Origin: Bacteroidia bacterium
GTDB lineage: Bacteria; Bacteroidota; Bacteroidia; 2-12-FULL-35-15
Direction of reading: 5' to 3'
Assembly (NCBI GenBank): GCA_030654175.1
Contig: JAURXZ010000049.1
Span: forward strand, 1-64,000
DNA length: 64,000 nt
Position 1 is the first letter of the stretch. Every line of letters begins with the position of its first letter. The position numbers and the translations under genes are program-made. This document shows positions 22,976 through 24,267 of the stretch, piece after piece. The notes beneath the pieces are model-generated. The model saw only the letters and a list, made by a program, of their open reading frames with translations, made no database searches and was not told the origin of the DNA.

Positions 22976-22980
22976 AGCAT

Positions 22981-23513
22981 CAACGAATAACGAATTTTTA
23001 CGAATAACGAATCTATACTTATCATGAATTAGTCAATTATGGATTAATTAATCTTTTGTAGATAACGCCTTCTTTACCGAAATTTATCAGGATAGCTAAT
23101 TTCAACTTAGATGTTTTCAAATAATCAATGGTTTGATCAATATTAGCTTTAGAAAATTTATCATCTTTTTTAATTTCGACTACAATTTTATCTTCTACCA
23201 CAAAATCAAAATAGCGTTTGGCAATTACTTGTTCTTTAAACTTTATTTGATAATGAACTTGTTCTGCAAATGACAGTTTCTTCTCTTTCAAGGCAAGTGC
23301 AAGTGCTTTTTGATATATACTTTCCTTAAATCCAAATCCTAACTCATTATGAACCTCAAATGCACAACCTACAATTTGAAAACTTAATTCAGGATATAAT
23401 AAATCATTTCTTTTTAAGTTATGCATAAAAACACAGATTCGTTATTCGTGAAAATTCGTTATTCGCTTGTTTAGTATACAGATTCGTTATTCGTGAAAAT
23501 TCGTTATTCGTTG
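22981..23513. mobile_element. Inverted-repeat-bounded GxxExxY element
   Basis: A 34-bp sequence at 22981-23014 is repeated in inverse orientation at 23480-23513 with 33 of 34 positions identical, and a further 31 bp of it lies at 23435-23465. Each copy consists of two 12-mers, ATTCGTTATTCG, separated by five bases (for example 23437-23448 and 23454-23465). Between the repeats lies one gene encoding a GxxExxY nuclease-fold protein. The unit fits exactly between the stop of fabG (23521) and the start of the VWA gene (22975). I see no target-site duplication. The layout resembles REP/RAYT single-gene elements. Confidence 0.6.
23037..23426 (-). CDS. GxxExxY protein, PD-(D/E)XK nuclease-like
   Basis: A 129-residue protein of the GxxExxY family, which is scattered through many unrelated genomes and has no proven role. 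The defining motif is Gly32-FK-Glu35-SI-Tyr38 in GFGFKESIYQKAL. The C-terminal half has a nuclease-like core: Asp74 in YFDFVVEDK and Glu84-Ile-Lys86 in IVVEIKKDD, the spacing expected of a PD-(D/E)XK active site, with a helix DQTIDYLKTSKLKLAILINFG. All candidate catalytic residues are intact, so the protein may be active. The gene is enclosed by near-identical inverted repeats (22981-23014 and 23480-23513), which suggests it moved in or is maintained as a unit. Confidence 0.9.
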   Translation of the reverse strand: MHNLKRNDLLYPELSFQIVGCAFEVHNELGFGFKESIYQKALALALKEKKLSFAEQVHYQIKFKEQVIAKRYFDFVVEDKIVVEIKKDDKFSKANIDQTIDYLKTSKLKLAILINFGKEGVIYKRLINP

Positions 23514-23520
23514 AGTTAGT

Positions 23521-24267
23521 TTACGTAAGCATCCCACCACATACATTAATTACTTGCCCTGTAATGTAAGTACTCATGTCGGAAGCTAAAAATACAGTTG
23601 CATTTGCAACATCATCAGCAGTTCCGCCACGTTTCAAAGGAATTGATTCTCTCCATCCTTCCACAACTTTTGGATCTAAAGCGGCAGTCATTTCCGTTTC
23701 AATAAAACCGGGAGCAATAGCATTACTGCGGATATTGCGTGAGCCCAATTCTAATGCAATAGATTTTGTGAAACCGATAATACCGGCTTTTGACGCTGCG
23801 TAATTTGACTGTCCTGCATTACCTTTTATCCCAACTACCGAACTCATATTAATGATAGAACCTTTACGCTGCTTCAGCATTGGTTTTGTGATGGCCTTCG
23901 TTAAATTAAATACGGATTTTAAATTGGCATTCATTACTTCATCCCATTGTTGTTCACTCATGCGCATCAGTAATGTATCCCTTGTAATACCTGCATTGTT
24001 CACTAAAACATCAACAGTACCAAAATCAGAAATTACAGCATTTACCAGTTCTTCAGCAGCTTTAAAATCAGCAGCATCCGATTGATAACCTTTCGCTTTT
24101 ATACCAAATGCCTCCAGCTCTTTTTCAAGTGCCAGTCCTTTTTCGATGGATGATAAATAGGTGAAAGCAATATTAGCACCATGTTCAGCAAATTTCATAG
24201 CAATGCCACGTCCAATACCTCGTGAAGCACCTGTAATTAAAGCAGTTTTACCTTCTAGTAATTTCAT
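23521..24267 (-). CDS. fabG: 3-oxoacyl-ACP reductase FabG
   Basis: NADPH-dependent reductase of the type II fatty acid synthesis cycle. The 248 residues have TGASRGIGRGIA (12-23) for cofactor binding, NNAGITRDTLLMRM (about 88-101), the catalytic Ser in INMSSVVG, and Tyr-xxx-Lys in NYAASKAGIIGF (about 153-164). RDTLLMRM and the C-terminal YITGQVINVCGGM are the FabG-specific segments among short-chain dehydrogenases. No other fab genes are adjacent. It has its own -7 box at 24313-24320 and sits after the sucD terminator, so it is transcribed separately. Confidence 0.93.
   Translation of the reverse strand: MKLLEGKTALITGASRGIGRGIAMKFAEHGANIAFTYLSSIEKGLALEKELEAFGIKAKGYQSDAADFKAAEELVNAVISDFGTVDVLVNNAGITRDTLLMRMSEQQWDEVMNANLKSVFNLTKAITKPMLKQRKGSIINMSSVVGIKGNAGQSNYAASKAGIIGFTKSIALELGSRNIRSNAIAPGFIETEMTAALDPKVVEGWRESIPLKRGGTADDVANATVFLASDMSTYITGQVINVCGGMLT

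Follow-up and report, generated by a model that had tools for sequence, protein, structure and literature searches.

The unit between fabG and its neighbour

Positions 22976-23520 of the window, as we call the whole 64-kb stretch of DNA analysed here, form a 545-nt gap between two open reading frames, and this gap is filled by a compact unit, a single GxxExxY gene enclosed by inverted arrays of a short word (Table 1). The original prediction had placed the unit between fabG and a 691-aa gene named as VWA; the placement holds, and the name is unconfirmed, the 691-aa neighbour having no match in Pfam or NCBIfam at E≤1e-3. This neighbour is carried by 56 of the 59 genomes searched. The outer arms stand 459 nt apart, a distance of 4 nt separates the left one from the 691-aa neighbour's start codon, and the list of open reading frames holds no second frame of at least 60 aa between the arms of the window unit.

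The arms had been described as 34-bp inverted repeats, each built of paired 12-mers. Their inversion is borne out, with a match slightly longer than was claimed (38 nt, 95% complementary); they are likewise repetitive, with a unit that is better read as the 6-nt word ACGAAT, four copies of which stand in each outer arm at spacings of 7, 10 and 7. The further copy expected within the right end is there as well. With up to one mismatch allowed, the 12-mer ATTCGTTATTCG matches six times in the 64-kb window, every time exactly and every time within the unit, whereas shuffled windows contain a mean of 0.38 matches and reached six in 0 of 100 cases.

Table 1. Features of the unit and its neighbours, in window coordinates
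Feature	Position	Strand	Remarks
Left neighbour, 691 aa	20900..22975	-	without family match; anchor of empty-site test
Left arm	22980..23017		four ACGAAT words, outside to inside TCAACGAATAACGAATTTTTACGAATAACGAATC
GxxExxY / PDDEXK_3 gene	23037..23426	-	129 aa; D74, E84, K86; AlphaFold2 pLDDT 90.7
Extra inner copy of right arm	23433..23465		third arm copy
Right arm	23477..23514		left arm inverted; 38 nt, 95% complementary
Right neighbour fabG	23521..24267	-	anchor of empty-site test

The encoded protein is a member of the GxxExxY / PDDEXK_3 family, scoring above both curated cut-offs (115.8 bits against a cut-off of 22 for PF13366, PDDEXK_3, and 118.5 bits against 35 for TIGR04256, GxxExxY). In agreement with the intact nuclease-like core first read from the sequence, D74, E84 and K86 are all in place, and the catalytic D, E and K are conserved in 116, 117 and 118, respectively, of 118 loci of the genus. 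The AlphaFold2 model has its best Foldseek match in SSO0001 (4ic1; E 2.2e-4, TM 0.49 by query length), which we take to be a Cas4, and the structural match to this chain has a Z of 9.6 over 99 residues with an rmsd of 3.2; by the fold tool's own note Z below 8 is common, and only three chains reach 8. Next in line, one search listed alkaline and lambda exonucleases together with splicing endonucleases, and the other search listed restriction enzymes as well as Holliday-junction resolvases; the top matches are presumably all PD-(D/E)XK nucleases. By sequence, no significant relative of solved structure was found (best E 0.51). Judged from its core residues and the model, the protein has the core and predicted fold of the PD-(D/E)XK superfamily and is a predicted nuclease; the modelled fold is closest to Cas4, and a shared fold does not establish function.

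Cas4 proteins have several cysteines for a [4Fe-4S] cluster and are linked to cas1/cas2. The window protein resembles them in its PD-(D/E)XK core, in its closest solved fold and in a weak PADLOC match to Cas4b (E 0.00073 and 0.015); unlike them, it is short (129 aa) with one Cys, its TM-scores are modest, and its unit contains no cas gene and has inverted word arrays in place of a CRISPR array. Membership in Cas4 or CRISPR adaptation was rejected on the single Cys and on the unit having no other open reading frame of at least 60 aa. A known defence system was also rejected, with PADLOC giving just these weak Cas4b matches, as was phage cargo, the sole PHROG match of the protein lying at E 0.22. 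In the full-text passages that we could consult, GxxExxY is named only in passing; one mention concerns a cas4 gene called there by another tool, beside a reverse transcriptase. We found no description of the arms in the open-licence literature, a scope that takes in few subscription papers, and a literal-sequence match in the consulted part of one paper (PMC3090145) was merely a PCR primer.

Inverted arms and arm words around GxxExxY genes

Of the four other full-length GxxExxY genes in the window's genome, three (L081-L083, as opposed to L084) have inverted repeats on both sides, as do all five TIGR02436 four-helix-bundle genes of that genome (weakest at L089), and each of these flanked genes has its own phrase; a sixth GxxExxY match is partial and, at 31 bits, under the cut-off. 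With flanked genes of both families in the same genome, the question widened from one element to an architecture. We scored this architecture by aligning the 300 nt upstream of a gene to the reverse complement of the 300 nt downstream, with a threshold score of at least 20.

GxxExxY is present in all 36 genus genomes and in 101 of 198 genomes sampled across the phylum. Among the 117 of 118 genus loci with sufficient flank (36 genomes), 104 score at least 20 and 85 at least 25; 80 of the genus loci were fetched from among the matches listed and are mostly intact, higher-scoring ones. By comparison, mismatched upstream/downstream pairs reach these scores in 32 and 6 of 347 cases, and neighbouring open reading frames in the same loci in 5 and 1 of 105. 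On this check, which the original prediction had suggested, GxxExxY genes are indeed enriched between inverted copies, and a chance origin of the arms is ruled out by the mismatched flanks, the neighbouring frames and the displaced segments described below. The layout extends across the window's phylum (20 of 29 GxxExxY loci at or above 20, against 14 of 226 mismatched pairs) and across GTDB (53 of 78, against 42 of 617), the latter set being the 80 best matches to two conserved peptides, a non-random choice of which 79 gave the gene and 78 had flank. Outside Bacteroidota, it occurs in 22 of 27 best-match loci, a count that leaves out three of the 78 GTDB loci that have no phylum; these include Planctomycetota (2 of 2), Verrucomicrobiota (3 of 3), Chloroflexota (2 of 3) and Pseudomonadota (5 of 8), and there is one archaeal case, a Methanosarcinales MAG. 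On plasmids, a relative of a consensus-like query is found in 8 of 72,556 records; plasmid cargo was rejected on this count, and given such scarcity no vehicle between hosts is seen. Three Chryseobacterium loci (L329, L330, L343) share one GxxExxY site. Sphingomonas parapaucimobilis has a GxxExxY gene flanked by short CGCGAAG arms (L368:1449-1914) in its fatty-acid gene cluster; the gene lies between fabD and fabG and, by the annotation, 2 nt from fabG.

The arms are made of words. A single class of 6-nt word occurs at least twice in both flanks of 86 of the 118 genus loci and of 0 of 221 displaced control segments, the classes having been defined by us after the arms had been seen; the other 32 loci received no label. 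There are 13 classes in this genus, among them ACGAAT, ACTAAT, GCAAAG, GCAGAG, ACAGAG, ACTAAG, ACATAG, ACAGAT and GCAGAT. In the 86 labelled loci, an arm carries 2 to 14 copies of its class word, most often 2 to 4 (137 arms of 172). Of these copies 616 run along the arm and 44 are opposed, and 202 of the 359 spacings of up to 30 nt fall at 7 to 10 nt.

The word goes with the protein. On a tree of all 118 proteins, with unlabelled loci as a fourteenth state, the words require 37 changes as compared with a shuffled mean of 79.1 (0 of 200 shuffles as low), and the 86 labelled rows alone require 19. Grouped by flanking genes, the genus loci fall into 61-67 distinct sites; because copies at one site share ancestry, we ran the test again on 47 rows, one for each combination of site and word, which gave 19 changes against 33.2 when shuffled, again with 0 of 200 as low. 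Taken singly on the same basis, ACGAAW (11 rows, 2 changes), ACATAG (6 rows, 1 change) and ACAGAG cluster clearly, and for 5 of the 10 words tested clustering is absent or slight: GCAAAG and ACAGAT hardly cluster (52 and 53 of 500 shuffles as low), and RCGGAG, GCAGAT and RCGGAT, with two rows each, are uninformative. Furthermore, the nearest protein at another site has the same word in 43 of 86 cases, against a mean of 8.5 and a maximum of 22 in 2000 shuffles. The ACGAA and ACTAAT words occupy one side of a branch with a support of 98, GAT-ending words fall mostly in two other protein groups and AG-ending words in a fourth (exceptions L121, L133 and L134). Since words are mixed within the AG-word clade, the match is one of word type more than letter by letter. 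At that level, comparison of the sequences indicates that the arm word tracks the phylogeny of the protein rather than the site.

An inverted repeat need not act in DNA. The TIGR02436 four-helix-bundle family, which we take to be the one found in rRNA intervening sequences, shares the layout, with 25 of 32 loci scoring at least 20 against 35 of 249 mismatched pairs (33 of 34 loci gave the gene, and 32 had flank). Transcribed arms would pair into a stem that is cut, leaving the insert harmless to its operon, and the protein would have some other job than mobility. In the window, the element strand does fold better than its shuffles (z -5.7; 0 of 100 as good), and in the part of the Coxiella report that we consulted the rRNA intervening sequence has complementary ends cut by RNase III (PMC4990558). 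Any long inverted repeat should give a stem, however, single arms are common, and pairing alone would not make words agree within an arm and with the clade of the protein; we consider this RNA role quite unlikely. The unit resembles the rRNA intervening sequences with their S23/four-helix-bundle frame in having one small open reading frame between complementary ends and in its patchy distribution; it differs in protein family and in standing between protein genes. Membership in that class was rejected, the unit lying between two protein genes and not inside an rRNA gene. TIGR02436 is itself present in 35 of 36 genus genomes, and outside rRNA its genes (L045-L049, L229-L257) are enclosed by inverted arrays whose words are longer, such as GAGATNT and TTAGTCA.

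Orphan arrays and the occupancy of sites

Confinement of the repeat to its locus would have refuted the original prediction, and the repeat is not so confined. Across the 5.1-Mb genome of the window, ATTCGTWATTCG occurs 63 times, 6 of them in the unit, while the pattern read backwards occurs 0 times; if up to three mismatches are allowed, there are 19 copies of the double 12-mer, 3 of them in the unit. Outside the unit, the ATTCGTWATTCG copies form 34 clusters, 33 of which are not within an open reading frame of at least 100 aa. These orphan clusters are mostly single arms or lone 12-mers, and a few (L059, L070, L072, L073, L078) are inverted pairs without a gene. A palindrome resembling GCTGAAACAAGTTCAGC stands as a second repeat beside the ATTCG arrays in L053, L054 and L069.

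Orphan clusters in the window's genome (G000; L050-L080) lie within 30 nt of the start of an open reading frame in 17 of 34 cases, a raw count without a control. TAACTGA direct repeats, which the consulted part of PMC4679880 reports from Beggiatoaceae, Cyanobacteria and some Bacteroidetes, chiefly right ahead of start codons, are similar to these copies near frame starts; they are further alike in being a short word in small direct arrays, patchy across phyla and spread without an evident mechanism, and unlike the present arrays they are a single heptamer read as regulatory, with no linked nuclease gene named in that part of the paper. Both the raw count and the proposed regulatory role of TAACTGA before start codons (PMC4679880, same part) would suit arms that serve a self-regulating gene, such as a defence- or toxin-like nuclease, as its operators or translation signals, with no mobility at all. 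Such signals have no need of an inverted copy past the stop codon. Gain or loss is required anyway by the many different sites and by their being filled or unfilled, and on the defence side PADLOC returned just the weak Cas4b matches (E 0.00073, 0.015), so that we regard a purely regulatory role as very improbable.

The orphan arrays bear more directly on whether the GxxExxY genes are passengers, sitting or surviving between inverted copies that another enzyme has spread. Arrays exceed genes, with 34 ATTCGTWATTCG clusters elsewhere against one labelled gene with that word. Counting four-word arrays per genome, the median is 11 in the 17 genomes with an ACGAA-type gene, by our own assignment, and 2 in the 19 without (p=0.006, own arms included); with own arms subtracted at 2 or 3 per gene, the former median becomes 9 or 8 and p becomes 0.05 or 0.10, uncorrected for kinship, and a tie between the number of arrays and the presence of the gene is then no longer clear. 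G012 and G019, moreover, are rich in arrays (17 and 22) and have no ACGAA-type gene among the matches listed, and four-helix-bundle genes, one GIY-YIG gene and an unnamed open reading frame of a second genus (g28, below) also lie between inverted arrays. Against passengers stands the word class, which keeps to the GxxExxY tree from site to site and, at a single site, changes along with gene type; a second, linked factor would be needed to do the word-protein matching, and between the arms in the window there is no other open reading frame of at least 60 aa. We judge passengers unlikely, and neither they nor an RNA stem would account alone for the match of word and protein.

Nor are the gene and its repeats fixed at the fabG site in all relatives, which likewise would have refuted the original prediction. 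Both neighbours are in view in 28 of 30 fetched genus loci, and of these 5 are filled (the window, G013, G004, G009 and G032, with gaps of 487-605 nt) and 23 unfilled (gaps of 7-190 nt). Read by eye, at least 7 of the 23 unfilled sites hold ATTCG arm pieces (L091, L092, L094, L095, L098, L114 and L118); at some the left and right arm tips are joined, and several others hold different phrases. Neither a target duplication nor an exact insertion boundary, the marks of a TIR transposon or insertion sequence, was found at the fabG or g28 site, where intergenic DNA is too diverged for a boundary to be placed, and filled and unfilled sites as such do not separate gain from loss. One ATGATT-type element stays at the same site in 12 loci.

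In the second genus, g28, a single site between two conserved genes, which we read as miaB and a sigma-54 regulator, was followed in 50 genomes: GxxExxY occupies it in 26, another open reading frame in 7 and neither in 17 (35-342 nt), and several sites without a frame contain inverted arrays lacking a gene. Thirty of these loci were taken as best matches to a filled query; the other 20 we picked from genomes in which the downstream gene was the match listed. Coming from chosen rather than random loci, the counts are not frequencies. On the tree of the host gene, occupants are scattered, with 26 changes over five states against 28.8 when shuffled, on a tree in which 4 of 47 branches are starred. 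Sister hosts differ in occupant (L404/L434, L412/L417, L389/L410); for instance, L404 is filled and its sister L434 unfilled, with a support of 94. The word changes with the gene: with gene types A, B and C assigned by eye and the first 75 nt of the upstream arm scored (L407 read further in), 10 of 10 type-B genes have GAT-ending and no AAT-ending words, and each of the 16 genes of type A or C has no fewer than two AAT-ending words, one of these genes (L401) with a GAT word besides. This switch of gene type and arm word at one site provides the cleanest evidence that the two travel, or are replaced, together. In L406, L408, L409, L412, L415, L418 and L419, the place of GxxExxY is taken by a different open frame of about 173-182 aa, which matches neither the GxxExxY nor the four-helix-bundle profile and which in 6 of 7 cases lies, by eye, between arms of TTTCAGG words.

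Parallels with REPtrons and other small elements

Compared across genomes, the gene and its arms co-occur at many chromosomal sites, and some relatives have these sites filled, while in others the sites are unfilled or down to arm pieces. With somewhat better than even confidence, we propose that the gene and its arms make up a REPtron-like element of a single gene, mobile now or in the past, in which the PD-(D/E)XK protein recognises the arm word; the movement of the element is something that we infer. Specifically, the GxxExxY protein, with its predicted Cas4-like PD-(D/E)XK fold, would bind a 6-nt word, of which an arm mostly has 2 to 4 copies spaced by 7-10 nt, and would nick or cut at the arms; host repair or replication may then copy the element, or the arms alone, into intergenic sites, or lose them. 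REPINs are non-autonomous derivatives of RAYTs, and the orphan arrays and gene-less inverted pairs may be non-autonomous derivatives in like manner.

A REPtron, as the consulted parts of two papers describe it, is a RAYT (TnpA_REP) gene with its REP/REPIN repeats (PMC3116915; PMC3733652). The parallel drawn in the original prediction extends to the layout of one nuclease-type gene near inverted repeats, to orphan repeats and inverted doublets in intergenic space, to filled and unfilled sites and to a repeat type that goes with the gene type; it fails for the protein and for the palindromes. Unlike the RAYT, a Y1/HuH transposase, the protein here is of a PD-(D/E)XK family, and unlike REP sequences, palindromes of 20-40 nt, the repeats here are direct arrays of a 6-nt word some 0.4-0.5 kb apart and of many word types. 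RAYT membership was rejected, since the window protein matches only PF13366 in Pfam (E≤1e-3) and no Y1 domain, and REP-type repeats were rejected as well, the arms being direct arrays with 616 word copies in arm sense against 44 opposed. On this analysis, the unit is not a RAYT, is not in rRNA and has no CRISPR partner, and it would work like a REPtron.

A bolder claim, to which we give somewhat less than an even chance, is that these units form a new class of one-gene mobile DNA, with a Cas4-fold PD-(D/E)XK nuclease, specific for a 6-nt word that stands several times in each inverted arm, as the mobility enzyme and with many of the short-word arrays between bacterial genes as its footprints; protein and word would then co-evolve, across many bacterial phyla and in at least one archaeal MAG. 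If GxxExxY genes do belong to word-array elements, a large uncharacterised family and a class of unexplained intergenic repeats would have a common explanation, and the words, of which this genus alone has 13 classes, would offer a natural range of DNA-word specificities to test. The origin of the CRISPR adaptation nucleases would be touched on too if a Cas4-like nuclease is part of an element that it flanks with its own arms, and the layout, which recurs in numerous bacteria and in a single archaeal genome, suggests a kind of small mobile DNA that has drawn little notice.

Two further comparisons concern the layout itself. BrickBuilt MITEs of Porphyromonas gingivalis are intergenic, with inverted ends and a tandem 23-nt unit, and the consulted part of their description names no inner gene (PMC4596501). 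They share with the present units the intergenic position, the inverted ends and the tandem repeats; here, unlike there, a gene lies inside and the repeats themselves form the arms (PMC4596501, same part). Among the five GIY-YIG matches in the window's genome, three are in small open reading frames, and one of these three (L369) has long inverted arms: the gene lies between two 61-nt copies (1330-1390 and 1782-1842) that are 79% complementary and contain the hairpin-like TTTCGAGTTTATCGAGAAACG.
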